A stretch of 64,000 nucleotides of DNA from Citrifermentans bemidjiense Bem (lineage in GTDB: Bacteria; Desulfobacterota; Desulfuromonadia; Geobacterales; Geobacteraceae). Shown here in pieces: positions 4,877-12,714 of this stretch. The DNA is taken from contig NC_011146.1 in the NCBI RefSeq assembly GCF_000020725.1, positions 4,530,001-4,594,000 on the forward strand, written 5' to 3'. The notes under the pieces are model-generated. The model saw nothing but the letters and a program-made list of their open reading frames with translations, was not told where the DNA came from and did not search any database. Positions within the stretch are counted from its first letter, which is position 1. Each line of letters begins with the position of its first letter. Both the position numbers and the translations under genes were made by a program.

Positions 4877-5452
4877 ATGGACAAAGCATCACGCATAAAA
4901 AGACGCAAAGCCATCATGCCGCTCCTCAGGGATCCGGAGGTAGAGGTGCGCCTGGCGGCGGCGCGTGCGCTGGAAAAGCTGGAGGCGGCCGAGAGCCTGG
5001 AAGAGATCTTCGATCGGCTGAAACGCGGGGATCGCGCCACCAAAGTGGCCGCTATTTACGCGATGGGGCGCATCGGCGGTGCGAAGGTACTGCCGGTCCT
5101 CTTTTACTGCGCGGGAAGAAGCGAGGTAGACATCAAGTCCGCTGCGATACGGGTGCTGGGCGAGGTGGAACTCCCGGAGGCGGTGCCTGTCCTTTTGGAG
5201 AAACTCGACGATCCGGCGCCGGAGGTGCGGGCCTTCGCCATCGAAGCGCTCGGCCACTACCGCGACCCCGCCCTGGTCCCCCGGCTGCTCCCTTTCCTGA
5301 AAGCAAACGACGGCATGCTCGACGCCGAAGCCGCACTTGCCTTAGGGCGAATCGGCGACGCGTCGCTGGCCGAGCCGCTCATGAGGCTGATCCACTCCCC
5401 CCACGAAAAAACCCGCGCTGCAGCGGCAACCGCCCTCTCCCTGCTCCCCTGA
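4877..5452 (+). CDS. HEAT-repeat protein (PBS-lyase type repeats)
   Basis: A 191-residue all-helical protein made of about six roughly 31-residue repeats of the type MPLLRDPEVEVRLAAARALEKL and LLEKLDDPAPEVRAFAIEALGHY. These repeats form a curved alpha solenoid that binds other proteins. There is no signal peptide, so it is probably cytoplasmic. It converges on the HD-GYP gene with only 6 bases between the stops, and that neighbour operon also encodes a HEAT protein, so the three may act together; this is inference. Confidence 0.75.
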   Translation: MDKASRIKRRKAIMPLLRDPEVEVRLAAARALEKLEAAESLEEIFDRLKRGDRATKVAAIYAMGRIGGAKVLPVLFYCAGRSEVDIKSAAIRVLGEVELPEAVPVLLEKLDDPAPEVRAFAIEALGHYRDPALVPRLLPFLKANDGMLDAEAALALGRIGDASLAEPLMRLIHSPHEKTRAAAATALSLLP

Positions 5453-5458
5453 CTCTCC

Positions 5459-6769
5459 CTAAAAGTACTGCGCCACGTCGATCCCCTTCACCAGAGGATC
5501 TACCAGGTCCACGATGTTGTCGCCGCTCGTGATGAGGCTTCTCAGCTCTGGGTTTTCGAGCAGGCTTCCGTGCGGGTCCATGACCACCTTCACCACCGCC
5601 GCGCCGCAGGGCTGGCTGCTGGGGGAGAACACCACGGCGATCTCGTTGCTGTCGAGCCGGACCAGGCTGCCGGTGGGATACTTTCCGGTCAACTCCATGA
5701 ACCGCTCCACGATGGCGCCGTCCAGGCTTCCCCCCACCGCTTTCCTGATCTCCTTCATCGCCTGGTCGGGGAGCATGGGGCGCTGGTAGCTTCTCAGCGT
5801 GGTGGTGGCGTCGTAGAAGTCGGCGACGGCGACGATCTTGCTGGTGGTCCCGAACTCCTTTTCCCTGGCCCACTCCGGGTATCCTGCCCGGTCGTAACGG
5901 ATATGATGTCCCAGGACCGCCTCGGCCACCCCTTCCGGAACCCCTTCCATCTCCCGGACGATGGCGGCCCCGAATTCCGGGTGCTTCCTCATCTCCAAAA
6001 ACTCGTCGCTGCTCAGCTTCCCCGGCTTGTTGAGGATGTCCTTGTCCACCCGGGTCTTCCCGATGTCGTGGAGAAAGCCGGCCAGGCCGCACTCCTCCAC
6101 CTCGATCTCCCCATGTCCCATGGACGCTGAGAGCGCCATGGAGAGTACGCCGACGTTGACGCTATGCTGGAAGGTGTAGTTGTCGTAATCCTTGATCAGG
6201 GCGAGACCCAAGAGCGCCGCCGGTTCCTTGATGGCCGCCGAGGCGAGGCTGCTCACCACGGTAAGCATGCGCCGGGAATTGGGTATGCGCCCCTTGCCGA
6301 TCTCCTCGAAGATGTCGCGCACCGCGCTGACCGCTTCGTTGTAGGTATGGGACAGGGAATTCTCCTCCATCACCTCGATCAGCTTTACCCCGGCCTCCTT
6401 CAGCCCGCGCGTCAGGTCGCCGGCCTCGTCGCTTCCCTCCGCCATCAAGCGCGTCAGCACGGTCAGGTCCGGCGTCAGCACCCCCGGCTTGAGGATCAGG
6501 CCAGCTATCTTCTTCTCCTCGAGACGGTTGATCAGCTCCTGCAGCGGTGCGGGGGGCGCGAAGAAGAGATGCTCGCCGACCGAGAGAACCCCATCCACAA
6601 CAGCCAGGCGCAGGTCTCCGCCGTTGCGCTGCAGCATCAGCATCAGCGCTTCCATTTCCCGGAAGGGCTGCAACGAGGCGGGGTGCCCAGGCGGATAGAG
6701 CCCGGCCCCTTTGATCGCGCCCGACAGGAGCGTCGCCAGGCGTTGTGCATGCTGCAGGCCGTCAATCAT
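5459..6769 (-). CDS. HD-GYP domain protein (putative c-di-GMP phosphodiesterase) with a novel N-terminal domain
   Basis: A 436-residue cytoplasmic protein. Residues about 5-135 form a domain that begins with KGAGLYPPGHP (20-30) and is also present at the start of the upstream HEAT gene. Residues about 190-400 are an HD-GYP domain with HSVNVG, HDIGK near 234, KHPEFG and HHIRYDRAGYP near 290, the metal and substrate residues that hydrolyse cyclic di-GMP. In the third motif the usual DGxGYP is DRAGYP. The ATG overlaps the upstream stop (ATGATTGA) and is preceded by GGAGG, so translation is coupled. An earlier in-frame start would lie inside the upstream gene and is not favoured. Confidence 0.85.
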   Translation of the reverse strand: MIDGLQHAQRLATLLSGAIKGAGLYPPGHPASLQPFREMEALMLMLQRNGGDLRLAVVDGVLSVGEHLFFAPPAPLQELINRLEEKKIAGLILKPGVLTPDLTVLTRLMAEGSDEAGDLTRGLKEAGVKLIEVMEENSLSHTYNEAVSAVRDIFEEIGKGRIPNSRRMLTVVSSLASAAIKEPAALLGLALIKDYDNYTFQHSVNVGVLSMALSASMGHGEIEVEECGLAGFLHDIGKTRVDKDILNKPGKLSSDEFLEMRKHPEFGAAIVREMEGVPEGVAEAVLGHHIRYDRAGYPEWAREKEFGTTSKIVAVADFYDATTTLRSYQRPMLPDQAMKEIRKAVGGSLDGAIVERFMELTGKYPTGSLVRLDSNEIAVVFSPSSQPCGAAVVKVVMDPHGSLLENPELRSLITSGDNIVDLVDPLVKGIDVAQYF

Positions 6770-8330
6770 GGGTTCCTCCGGAAATCCTTTCAATGGCGTC
6801 CAACGCCTCGCGGCACGCCTCAGCGAGCGCGCCGGAACCGCGGGCGAGCGAGGTGAGCGCGGCAATGGCCGTCTCGTCCCCCAGCATGCCCAGCGTCGAA
6901 GCCACTGCAACTTTCAGTTCGAGCCACCGTCCAAGCACGGGCCAGCCGCGGGTGCCGAGCATCTTGAGCAGTTGCGGGGTGACCCTGCGGTCGCCGATGC
7001 GCCCTAAGGCGGTCACCACTTCCTTCTTCACCCCGAGTTCTTTCAGGAAGATGTCGCGGCGATCCAAAAGCTTCAACAGTGCCGGCACCGCCTCGCGGCT
7101 GCGCATCAGGCCCAGGGAAAGTATGGCGTGGCGTACCACCCCTTCGTCCTCTTCGTCCAGAAGCGGCAACAGCAAGAGTACCGACGCCTCCCCCCCTATC
7201 TTCATCAGCGCCCGGATCGCTTCCTTGCGTACCCGGACGTCGTGGTGGTACAGAGGCCGCTTCAGCGCGAGGACGCAGTCGGCGCTGCGCAACTCTCCAA
7301 TGATCGCCACCATGTTCCTCACCACGTACCAGCGCTCGTCCTTGAGCATCGCGATCAAAGGCGCTATGGCAGCCTGCCCCAGGGCCACGAGCGCCGCTGC
7401 CAGCGACTTCCTTTCGAAGAGCCCCTCGGCGAGGCAGATCCTCTGGATCACCCAGTACGCCCCTTTGCCCCCGAGGGCGGCAAGCACGCGGTGAATCGAC
7501 TCCCGCTCCTCGCATTCGCGGCCTTCCAGCGCGTTTAGCAACTGGTCCGCAGCACCGTCGGCCAGGTGATCCAGCGTGAAGAGCGCGTACTCCCTCTGGG
7601 GAAGGCTCCGCTCAGGCTCCTGGTGCTGACGCAGCAGCTCCTCCAGGATGGTGAGAACCGGAACCTGCTGCGGATCGACCTGATACCCCGCCATCAGCTC
7701 CCGCCCCAGCTCCTGGTAGCGCGCATCGCTTGGTTCCCCCGCCATCAGCACCAGCAGCTCTCCGATGCCGCGCTGCTGATTCACCGGCGTAGCGGGCATC
7801 CCGAGGGAAGGGATGCTGTCCCAACCCTCCTGCACCCCCTCGTGGTACCCGGGACGCTTGGCCCAGATGGAGGCCAAGTCCTTCTCGTTGACCCAGACGG
7901 TGCGCACCCCTCTGTCTTCGAGTTCCTTGGCGAGGCCGCCCGCGGCGGCTCCTTTTTGCGGGTCGCAATTGAGCAGCTGTACGAAGATACCCAGGTCGCC
8001 GGGGATAAGGTCCTGCATGAAGCTGATGTTGGCGATCCTGCGGATGAAACATTCATGTGCCAGCTGCTGCACCATGTTGTTCCCCTCGACAGGCTCCCCC
8101 GTCAGGAGGAACCCGTGCCGGTTCACGCCGAGAACCAGTTCGCGGTCCGACAAGAGCTTCTTCAGGCAGTCGTAAGCGCGCTGCAGGGTCTCGGTGCGGT
8201 AAGGGTGCCCTTTGGGATAGAACCCAGCCCCCTTCACCGCCTTGTGCAATTCGACCAGGGCCTGTACCAGGAACCCCCGATTCTCCGCCGGCGGGACCAG
8301 CTTCAGCATTTTTTTCTTCACAACCGGCAA
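6762..8330 (-). CDS. HEAT-repeat protein sharing an N-terminal domain with the HD-GYP protein
   Basis: About 522 residues. The first part (motif KGAGFYPKGHP near residues 33-43, then LVLGVNRHGFLLTGEPV) parallels the start of the downstream HD-GYP protein in motif, order and spacing. The C-terminal half, about 270-520, is a series of HEAT repeats such as CVLALKRPLYHHDVRVRKEAIRAL. The start is uncertain: an ATG lies at 8360 without a ribosome binding site, while TTG at 8330 follows GGGGAGG by four bases and is chosen here. It overlaps the HD-GYP gene by 8 bases. The two products may form a complex; function is unknown. Confidence 0.75.
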   Translation of the reverse strand: MPVVKKKMLKLVPPAENRGFLVQALVELHKAVKGAGFYPKGHPYRTETLQRAYDCLKKLLSDRELVLGVNRHGFLLTGEPVEGNNMVQQLAHECFIRRIANISFMQDLIPGDLGIFVQLLNCDPQKGAAAGGLAKELEDRGVRTVWVNEKDLASIWAKRPGYHEGVQEGWDSIPSLGMPATPVNQQRGIGELLVLMAGEPSDARYQELGRELMAGYQVDPQQVPVLTILEELLRQHQEPERSLPQREYALFTLDHLADGAADQLLNALEGRECEERESIHRVLAALGGKGAYWVIQRICLAEGLFERKSLAAALVALGQAAIAPLIAMLKDERWYVVRNMVAIIGELRSADCVLALKRPLYHHDVRVRKEAIRALMKIGGEASVLLLLPLLDEEDEGVVRHAILSLGLMRSREAVPALLKLLDRRDIFLKELGVKKEVVTALGRIGDRRVTPQLLKMLGTRGWPVLGRWLELKVAVASTLGMLGDETAIAALTSLARGSGALAEACREALDAIERISGGTHD

Positions 8331-10416: not shown

Positions 10417-12714
10417 ATGGCTGGCCGGAAGGGACAAAACCTCCTGGAGCAAGCATTAACTATTGCCCAGGCCCCAGGTCGGTCCCATCAGGTCCGCCTC
10501 AACAGCCTGCTTCGCCTGGCGGCCCGTTGGCATTCCCTCGCCTCGGCCACCATCTATCTCCCCGATCCCAAAGGGGTGGTGTTGCAGCGTCGCTTCAGCA
10601 CGCTGGCCACCCCCTCCGGCCACAACTGCCACATCCCTTACGGCGTGGGTCTCGCCGGGCGCACCGCCGCCACCCTTTCACCCCAATCCGCCAGTGCCGA
10701 CCTGCTTCATCCCGACGAGCCCTGTTCCGGCAACGGCTCCATCGCTGCGCTCCCCCTTTTGGACGGGGACCGGCTCTTCGCCGTGCTGGCGCTGGAGAGC
10801 GGCGCCGCGGAAGTCGCCCGGGAAGCCGTCGACGCGGCCGGTACCCTGGCGCCCGTCTTCTCCCTGACCGTAGCCCGCATGGCCGCAGCCGAAGAGGCTG
10901 AGGAGGCGCAGCGCAACCTGTCGCTACTTTCGGCGCTGGCCAAGCTCTTGAGCTCGCCGCAGCCGCGCGGGGTGCTGCTGCACCGGTTGATGCAGCTTTG
11001 CACCAGTTCCGGCCTCTCCAGTTGCGCCATCGTCCGCTTGAAGCAGAGGAATTCCGGCAAGGAGAGGGTGATCCGGAGCTGCCGCAGGGGAATGGGCGAC
11101 AAGCTCCCCGACCTGCTGGAAAAAGAAGCTGCCCTGGCGGTCCATGTCTGCGCCACCGAGACCACCTGCGCCGAGGAACTCGGAGACGACTCCAGCTACC
11201 GGTACGCCCTCTGCACCCCGCTGGGAAGCAACGGCGCGGCGCTGGGGACCATGACCCTCTTCGGGGGGCCCGAACTGACCGCGCCCAAGCAGATCGAGCT
11301 TGCCGAAACGGTCGCGCGACTTTTGTCCGGCGCCATGGCCGAGGCGATCTGCAAGGAGCAGATCAAGACCTACGACAGCGAGAACGAGAAGAAGCTGAAA
11401 GAGCTGTCCCTTCTCTACCGGATGAGCAACACCATGCTCTCCACCATCCAGCTGAACAAACTGATCCACCTCACCCTGACCGCGCTCACCTCGGGTCCCA
11501 CCCCCTTCTTCGACCGGGCCATGCTCTTTCTCACCAACGAGCGTTCCGGGATGTTGCTCGGCATGCTGGGGGTAACGACGGAGACCTCCCCTTCCCTCTC
11601 CAGCCAAAACGGAGGGAGCGACGACCTCCTCTCCAGCCGGTGGGACATCTCCGATGAAGAGATGGCCGCCCAGCGCAACTCCGAATTCTGCCGGCAGGTA
11701 CAGGGGAGACGGCTTGAGCTGGACGGAACGCTCAACATCGCTTCCCAGGCCGTGCTGGAAAAGAGGCTGATCTACATCCCCGAAGAAGGCGGCATCGGCG
11801 GCCCCCTCCATTCCCGGCGCAGCGCCCTGGCCGCCTCTCCGCTCATCGCGCATGGGCAGGCCGTAGGGGCGGTACTGGTGGACAACGCCCTCACCCACAA
11901 GCCGATCAACCAGGAGCACCTGCGTTTCCTGCAGCTCTTCACCAACCAGGCGGGAATGGCCATCGAGAACTCGATGCTCTACAACAAGATCGAGGACGCG
12001 AACCATCAGTTGAGCGAGGCGCAGGAGAACCTGCTCCAGAAGGAGCGGCTTGCCGCCATCGGCGAAATGGCCGCCGGCATCGCACACGAGTTGAAGGGGC
12101 CGCTGGTCTCCATCGGCGGCTTCGCCGGCAGGCTCGCCAGGAAACTCCCCCAGGACACCAGCGAGTGGGCCCATGCCGACCTGATCGTGCGCGAAGTGCT
12201 CCGGTTGGAGGGAATCCTCTCCGAGATCCTGCTCTTTTCGAAGAAAACCACCATCTGTTACACCCGGTGCGACCTCTCCGAGGTCGTGAAGGAGTCGCTC
12301 GCCGTGGTCACCCCTCCACTGGAGGAGAAGCAGATCAGCGTGAACGCCAAATTCCCGCGGCATAAGCTCTTGCTTTTGGGGGACGGACAGCAGTTGAAGC
12401 AGGTGTTCATCAACATCATCCTGAACGCCCTCGATGCCATGGGGACAGGGGGGGCGCTGAACATCCAGGTCTCGGCGGCCGAGATGGACGACAAGGAAGC
12501 CGTCCAGGTGAAGATATCCGACACCGGCGGCGGCATCCCGCTGGAGTCCTTGAACAGCATCTTCACCCCCTTCTTCACCACCAAAGGAAGCGGCACCGGC
12601 TTGGGGCTCCCCATCGCCAACCGCATCATCACCAACCACGGCGGCAAGATCCAAGTCACCAACAACCCCGGCCTCGGGGTCGAGTTCAGGGTCATCCTGC
12701 CCAAGCACTGGTGA
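10417..12714 (+). CDS. GAF-domain sensor histidine kinase (soluble)
   Basis: A 765-residue protein without membrane segments. Residues about 15-160, 165-310 and 330-515 look like three GAF-type sensor domains. A coiled coil (LSEAQENLLQKERLAAIGEMA) leads to the H-box IAHELKGPLVSIGG, in which His is the phosphorylated residue. The catalytic ATPase domain has NIILNALDAM, DTGGGIP, FFTTK and GTGLGLPIANRI. It is probably a cytoplasmic sensor in a two-component system; no response regulator is adjacent, so the partner is unknown. Confidence 0.9.
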   Translation: MAGRKGQNLLEQALTIAQAPGRSHQVRLNSLLRLAARWHSLASATIYLPDPKGVVLQRRFSTLATPSGHNCHIPYGVGLAGRTAATLSPQSASADLLHPDEPCSGNGSIAALPLLDGDRLFAVLALESGAAEVAREAVDAAGTLAPVFSLTVARMAAAEEAEEAQRNLSLLSALAKLLSSPQPRGVLLHRLMQLCTSSGLSSCAIVRLKQRNSGKERVIRSCRRGMGDKLPDLLEKEAALAVHVCATETTCAEELGDDSSYRYALCTPLGSNGAALGTMTLFGGPELTAPKQIELAETVARLLSGAMAEAICKEQIKTYDSENEKKLKELSLLYRMSNTMLSTIQLNKLIHLTLTALTSGPTPFFDRAMLFLTNERSGMLLGMLGVTTETSPSLSSQNGGSDDLLSSRWDISDEEMAAQRNSEFCRQVQGRRLELDGTLNIASQAVLEKRLIYIPEEGGIGGPLHSRRSALAASPLIAHGQAVGAVLVDNALTHKPINQEHLRFLQLFTNQAGMAIENSMLYNKIEDANHQLSEAQENLLQKERLAAIGEMAAGIAHELKGPLVSIGGFAGRLARKLPQDTSEWAHADLIVREVLRLEGILSEILLFSKKTTICYTRCDLSEVVKESLAVVTPPLEEKQISVNAKFPRHKLLLLGDGQQLKQVFINIILNALDAMGTGGALNIQVSAAEMDDKEAVQVKISDTGGGIPLESLNSIFTPFFTTKGSGTGLGLPIANRIITNHGGKIQVTNNPGLGVEFRVILPKHW

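Follow-up and report, generated by a model that had tools for sequence, protein, structure and literature searches.

A shared, unnamed N-terminal domain on a HEAT-repeat protein and an HD-GYP protein encoded by overlapping genes in Citrifermentans bemidjiense Bem

The window analysed here, a stretch of 64,000 nucleotides from Citrifermentans bemidjiense Bem (NC_011146.1, forward-strand positions 4,530,001 to 4,594,000; window coordinates are used below), carries two overlapping genes on its minus strand, whose products join a common N-terminal domain (NTD) to HEAT repeats in one case and to an HD-GYP domain in the other. The NTD-HEAT gene (P0002, 6762-8330) lies upstream of the NTD-HD-GYP gene (P0001, 5459-6769, 436 residues from an ATG at 6769). 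Two starts are available to the HEAT gene, TTG 8330 and ATG 8309, the latter giving 515 residues, with the TTG preceded by AGGGGAGG; judged by this Shine-Dalgarno sequence, TTG 8330 appears the likelier start. The overlap reported in a first-pass annotation of this DNA holds and amounts to 8 bases, ATGATTGA (6762-6769, minus strand), which contain the HEAT stop and the HD-GYP start, with GGAGG just upstream of the second start. Such an overlap suggests translational coupling, consistent with a stoichiometric complex of the two products.

The NTD comprises approximately 130 residues and is homologous in the two proteins, extending over residues 2-135 of the HD-GYP protein (6365-6766; placed by BLASTP, the A1 alignment, hhalign, and AlphaFold2) and residues 8-142 of the HEAT protein (7884-8288; placed by the A2 alignment, hhalign, and AlphaFold2). 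BLASTP of the two full proteins aligns their N-terminal residues 15-167 and 21-180 with an E-value of 5e-8, and the similarity is strong at the profile level too, with hhalign of the dereplicated HD-type (A1, 40 sequences) and HEAT-type (A2, 53 sequences) NTD alignments giving a probability of 99.1 and an E-value of 8.5e-19 over 132 columns. The annotation had described a duplicated domain opening both proteins and marked by KGAG(L/F)YPxGHP, and this description is sustained by both comparisons, by the split of the NTD tree described below, and by the motif itself, which reads KGAGLYPPGHP at residues 20-30 of the HD-GYP protein (6680-6712) and KGAGFYPKGHP at residues 26-36 of the HEAT protein (8202-8234), followed downstream by LRLAVVDGVLSVGE and LVLGVNRHGFLLTGE. 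Tyr25 is invariant in A1, with Pro26, His29, Pro30, and Ala31 nearly so, while Tyr31, Pro32, His35, Arg90, and Gly124 are invariant in A2.

The domain had also been called unnamed, and no family of the searched libraries spans it, with neither Pfam nor NCBIfam offering a model over the N-termini of the window's two proteins. At E<=0.1, no Pfam family is consistent over A1 (best CBS, 5 of 40 members, E 0.017) or over A2 (best DUF3944, 5 of 53 members, E 0.00027), and any one NCBIfam family matches at most one of the 53 HEAT-type and two of the 40 HD-type NTDs. A profile search of PDB sequences reveals no credible relative of the NTD; Octarellin V.1 (4zv6_B, E 9.5e-10), an artificial design, was judged a composition match, as no fold match followed. 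DUF3391 is an N-terminal domain of some HD-GYP proteins, and its model (PF11871) matches one relative (L163) weakly, with an E-value of 0.0017 and 19.4 bits against a cut-off of 27.8. This match is partial (profile positions 91-130 of 136) and C-terminal to the NTD, covering residues 136-175 behind an NTD at 16-136, and DUF3391 has no match in the window's proteins (E<=1) or in the 40 A1 members (E<=0.1).

AlphaFold2 models the HD-type NTD with a mean predicted local distance difference test score (pLDDT) of 89.2 and a predicted template modelling score (pTM) of 0.83. The predicted domain consists of two long helices that flank the YPxxHP loop, followed by strand-strand-strand-helix-strand-helix-helix-strand-helix, and the main helices and strands of the HEAT-type model are ordered likewise, with the addition of one short helix. 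Comparison of the NTD model with the PDB (best Foldseek E 0.98, best VIA Z 3.4) and with BFVD (best E 0.42) yields nothing credible, with GAF entries heading the weak Foldseek list at E ~1 and a query TM-score (TMq) of at most 0.24 among the 50 matches listed. The lack of a match in the PDB and BFVD, the libraries compared, does not prove that the modelled fold is new. The NTD merits a family of its own.

Across 84,980 species genomes, 149 places were found to encode relatives of P0001, of which the best 80, from 79 distinct loci, were kept and supplied the A1 and A2 alignments. The record titles of these loci name Geobacter relatives, Desulfuromonadales, or unassigned Deltaproteobacteria, the NCBI lineage of most named loci being Thermodesulfobacteriota, and P0001 has a counterpart in Citrifermentans bremense R1 that shares 97% identity with it. 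Clean pairs are found by the profile method at 73 of the 79 loci, with the HEAT gene broken or cut at L004, L011, L076, and L079. Within the phylum surveyed, Desulfobacterota, the NTD (A2 profile, E<=0.01) is present in 101 of 297 sampled genomes. Of the 146 genomes sampled from the window's class, Desulfuromonadia, the home of metal-reducing Geobacter relatives, 131 carry it at the same threshold. The phylum scan gave at least 106 clusters, distributed over 90 genomes. Two adjacent matches make up 44 of the clusters and a single match the other 62, and a partner was found on the flanks in 46 of these 62. Together with a second pair from the window's genome these make 107 loci, which were read with home-built NTD, HEAT, and HD-GYP profiles, the 23 loci without a clean pair being examined a second time. 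Four loci lie at contig ends (L140, L153, L160, and L183, with a HEAT frame directly upstream of the NTD-HD-GYP gene in L153), and at 91 of the 103 informative loci an NTD-HEAT gene is followed by an NTD-HD-GYP gene. Of these pairs 84 are clean and 7 are further cases, among them an HD-GYP gene in two frames (L146), an HD-GYP gene truncated where the contig ends (L181), and NTD and HEAT parts in successive frames (L202, L218, and L228). The HEAT partners form roughly two length classes, of ~520-660 and 700-890 residues as stop-to-stop frames.

No relatives of P0001 or P0002 are present on viral contigs, and plasmids hold no match to P0002 at E<=0.01. Plasmid matches to P0001 (best 30 of 492) start at query residue 119 or later and fall largely in the HD-GYP part, as do those to the HD-GYP protein of L129 (best 10 of 551), which likewise start at query residue 119 or later. 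HEAT proteins from other phyla may have similar N-termini. Two open frames of 752 and 743 residues (L255:1-1968, minus strand, and L259:1474-3408, plus strand) also carry the NTD, with no HEAT or HD-GYP match in the available part and a far end resembling, by eye, a degenerate GGDEF start.

The window's genome provides its own control, with 13 HD-GYP genes (PF13487; 14 matches, one gene having two), of which two carry the NTD, each directly behind an NTD-HEAT gene. The other 11 are without the NTD and show no HEAT-profile match (E<=0.01) within 1.4-3 kb per side. The second pair is diverged and lies at G000:C1:293372-296548, behind a gene reading as GroEL. An apparent third NTD copy, at 982399, is a chance match inside a gene resembling, by eye, that of 8-amino-7-oxononanoate synthase. 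The motif of the second pair is degenerate (IYLPNNP and NYSEGHA), which makes a strictly conserved ligand site unlikely and bears on an account of the NTD as a ligand-binding sensor, with each protein sensing the same small molecule separately and the operon coordinating two outputs without any complex. The NTD does stand before both HD-GYP and PAS-histidine-kinase outputs, and its Y-P-x-x-H-P loop, in which the Tyr is invariant and the His invariant or nearly so, could form a binding site; as such sensing would not call for a HEAT partner to be so frequent, we regard this account as doubtful, if worth keeping in mind.

Both the HD-GYP and the HEAT assignments of the first-pass annotation are confirmed by Pfam, with the HD-GYP domain (residues 191-352, 5714-6199, minus strand) matching HD_5 at 76.7 bits against a cut-off of 27.2. 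Residues His202, His234, Asp235, His263, His288, His289, and Asp317, together with GYP, are invariant in all 80 sequences, the window's included; we take them to be binuclear metal ligands (H, HD, H, HH, and D), and these intact residues suggest that the domain is likely a binuclear phosphodiesterase. PmGH (4mcw) matches the protein by phmmer with an E-value of 8e-19. Four positions before the first His, all 80 sequences have Tyr198 where PmGH has a Glu, which we presume to be a third-metal ligand. The GYP region reads HHxxxDRxGYPEW (5870-5908, minus strand, residues 288-300), with 90% or more of the 80 sequences having Arg at the place where we take the usual form to be DG (HHxxxDG). Behind the HD domain follows a conserved C-terminal segment (residues 360-436 plus the stop, 5459-5692, minus strand) with the family consensus G.YPVGtLVRLD.NE.

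These two departures, the Tyr and the Arg, are what might be expected were the domain a cyclic di-GMP (c-di-GMP) receptor and not an enzyme, with the HEAT arm carrying the response. Such receptors exist, the HD-GYP domain of Desulfovibrio DvhD being described as preferring c-di-GMP as a ligand (PMC13090378). The invariance of all seven HD-site ligand residues and of GYP argues for retained catalysis, and a receptor role is in our view unlikely.

The HEAT protein matches HEAT_2 at 87.8 bits against a cut-off of 27.7, over four stretches, and matches HEAT_PBS as well. AlphaFold2 models the full protein with a pLDDT of 91 and a pTM of 0.67, with residues 182-514 (6768-7766, minus strand) predicted as helices of an alpha-solenoid, most blocks of which exceed a pLDDT of 90, and which bear the conserved segments D.RW..VRN and H..VR.E. 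This predicted solenoid resembles alphaRep chains, with a probability of 1.00 and target TM-scores (TMt) of 0.43-0.80 among the matches listed. Between the NTD and the repeats, residues 147-177 (7779-7871, minus strand) are modelled with a pLDDT below 50 and are probably a flexible linker. A HEAT-like repeat protein of Geobacter, KN400_2162, is reported as mutated in two adapted strains (PMC13194489).

The NTD tree was built from 97 of 161 pairs, remaining after length and similarity filters and dereplication, and comprises 194 NTDs over 140 columns. One branch parts the 97 HEAT-type from the 97 HD-type NTDs, with one change between types against a mean of 65 for shuffled labels and none of 500 shufflings as low, and partners of one operon type tend, by eye, to cluster on both sides (for example L118, L135, L155, L168, L175, and L185). 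The simplest reading of these sequences is that one duplication made the pair, which may then have spread and duplicated as a unit.

The genes flanking the pair change between loci whilst the pair is constant, with RadA-type genes at 34, FabH-type genes at 22, and TraR/DksA-type genes at 21 of 129 loci (names by eye). In the window, RadA-like (8511) and TraR/DksA-like (10018) genes are followed by a plus-strand gene for 765 residues (10417-12714) that by eye resembles a GAF-type sensor histidine kinase, a similar frame being present, by eye, beside the pair in 32 of the 129 loci. Were the pair an ordinary neighbourhood, reflecting common descent by vertical inheritance and no function in common, inheritance alone would give congruent trees, and the coevolution tests given below are compatible with this. 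The persistence of the pair over several divergent types while its flanks change, and the lack of a HEAT neighbour at the genome's other HD-GYP genes, speak against it, and we consider it highly improbable.

Convergent to the pair lies a HEAT-only protein (P0003, 191 residues, 4877-5452, plus strand; by profile match), which the first-pass annotation had suggested as a possible further partner. As a convergent neighbour it is conserved at 65 of the 79 loci (13 lack it, and one ends at a contig edge), which is only a hint of a link; the NTD profile does not match it. P0003 is also one candidate for a third component, with the membrane, the cell pole, or a complex as others, on which the NTD might dock each of the two proteins separately, as the existence of lone NTD proteins and the frequency of P0003 at these loci would allow. 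Once the pair and antisense frames are set aside, each neighbour family is confined to at most five of the loci retrieved by genome handle, a count in which HEAT-only neighbours were merged with HEAT partners, and with P0003 itself absent from 13 of 79 loci we hold separate docking to be unlikely.

Most likely, a c-di-GMP phosphodiesterase is tethered to a HEAT scaffold through mutual binding of the two NTDs, an interaction that we infer from several observations together. Heterotypic NTD-NTD pairing is favoured because the same NTD is present on both products of overlapping genes and the pair is constant in a changing context, and because the two NTD types are separate and the HEAT solenoid is probably tethered. 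That the domain links c-di-GMP turnover to a scaffold, as the first-pass annotation proposed, is the best reading because the pair recurs in 91 of 103 informative loci, although the coevolution analyses show no preference for NTD-NTD contacts. Taken as a whole, the view of the gene pair as a two-protein c-di-GMP signalling unit, with NTD-NTD pairing and a phosphodiesterase tied to a HEAT scaffold, is one that we hold evenly poised between right and wrong. The HEAT-type and HD-type NTDs would pair, probably as a heterodimer whose ancestor, before gene duplication, was a homodimer, and would hold the phosphodiesterase beside the HEAT solenoid on its flexible tether. Carrying a client protein or ligand, the solenoid might then set the location of the HD-GYP domain or toggle its activity, the outcome being local breakdown of c-di-GMP.

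Coevolution between the partners was examined in two ways. Mean-field direct coupling analysis (DCA) of 149 pairs (effective number 115) gives inter-protein couplings of up to 5.9 standard deviations, compared with 1.8-3.0 for freely shuffled partners, an excess that can be explained by shared ancestry alone. Mutual information was tested on 142 pairs against a null in which partners were exchanged inside clades, and the z-values are 9.4 and 6.0 for NTD-NTD, 16.4 and 11.3 for the NTD of the HEAT protein with the HD domain, 9.7 and 7.8 for the HEAT repeats with the NTD of the HD-GYP protein, and 13.3 and 6.1 for the HEAT repeats with the HD domain; all four domain pairs exceed this null, a result in keeping with residual shared ancestry.

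A number of results weigh against the proposed pairing or against the constancy of the unit. NTD-NTD coevolution does not rise above that of the control domain pairs (z 6.1 to 16.4), and inter-protein couplings make up 15 of the DCA top 40 where 20.7 are expected from the number of column pairs. The branch separating HEAT-type from HD-type NTDs has a Shimodaira-Hasegawa-like approximate likelihood ratio test (SH-aLRT) value of only 59, and many forks of the tree are unresolved. A fusion of NTD, HEAT repeats, and HD domain, if found, would argue for contact, and no single-frame fusion of this kind is present among 361 NTD frames from 196 loci. Two of the loci counted as pairs, L164 and L187, have HEAT_2 scores of 15.1 and 21.4 bits, below the cut-off of 27.7. 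At 12 loci no adjoining partner is found. The NTD-HEAT gene stands alone at eight loci (L142, L147, L152, L154, L156, L157, L158, and L173) and the NTD-HD-GYP gene at L163, while the NTD precedes a PAS-histidine kinase in L189, forms part of an NTD-HEAT-cNMP-PilZ protein of 1690 residues in L190, and lies within a GGDEF-AAA-NTD-HEAT protein of 1181 residues in L127 (567-4109, plus strand). The architecture of L189 is seen as well at L136 (787-3156, minus strand), and that of L190 at L128 (1984-7053, plus strand). Among the 79 loci, NTD-HD-GYP genes without a HEAT gene are found only in L041 (4956-6344) and L056 (4971-6341).

Two of these exceptional arrangements have features of their own. In L127 the NTD is joined in one chain to a predicted c-di-GMP synthase, and in L041 and L056 the motif is YPxAHQ in place of YPxxHP, with a gene that by eye is PepN-like upstream.

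The pair could represent a widespread, undescribed c-di-GMP signalling system in which a phosphodiesterase and a HEAT scaffold recognise one another by twin NTDs, their predicted fold absent from the PDB, with several paralogous pairs in a genome being partner-specific in the manner of histidine kinases and response regulators; we advance this tentatively, thinking it somewhat more apt to fail than to hold. Discussions of HD-GYP enzymes usually concern sensory domains that belong to the enzyme's own chain; the candidate regulator here resides in a second protein bearing the same NTD. If the pairing is physical, it offers a directly testable answer to the question of how the product of one of 13 HD-GYP genes could act locally. 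Within the class of the Geobacter relatives, c-di-GMP is reported to affect biofilm formation and extracellular electron transfer. No description of the HEAT/HD-GYP pair or of the NTD was found among the open-access titles and abstract openings listed, a search outside which subscription papers and preprints lie.

Among the closest known systems is the Dvh/Lap system of Desulfovibrio, with its PAS/HD-GYP receptor DvhD, which resembles the pair described here in that an HD-GYP protein works with a partner protein; the partner in that system is however the periplasmic protease DvhG, with no HEAT-repeat protein found in the accessible part of the report (PMC13090378). The HD-GYP phosphodiesterases PmGH (4mcw), 5z7c, a 3'3'-cGAMP phosphodiesterase, and 4r8z share with the window's protein the HD-GYP domain and the residues of the binuclear site, and the window's protein differs from them in its unnamed NTD, in the Tyr at the third-metal Glu position, and in the adjoining NTD-HEAT gene. 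Similarly, P0002 shares HEAT_2 and HEAT_PBS with HEAT and PBS-lyase-like HEAT proteins and resembles the alphaRep designs in its predicted solenoid, and it differs from both in bearing, on a low-confidence linker, an NTD like that of the adjacent HD-GYP protein. The HD-GYP and HEAT parts are known, and in this conserved two-gene unit they are joined by an unnamed domain that both partners carry.

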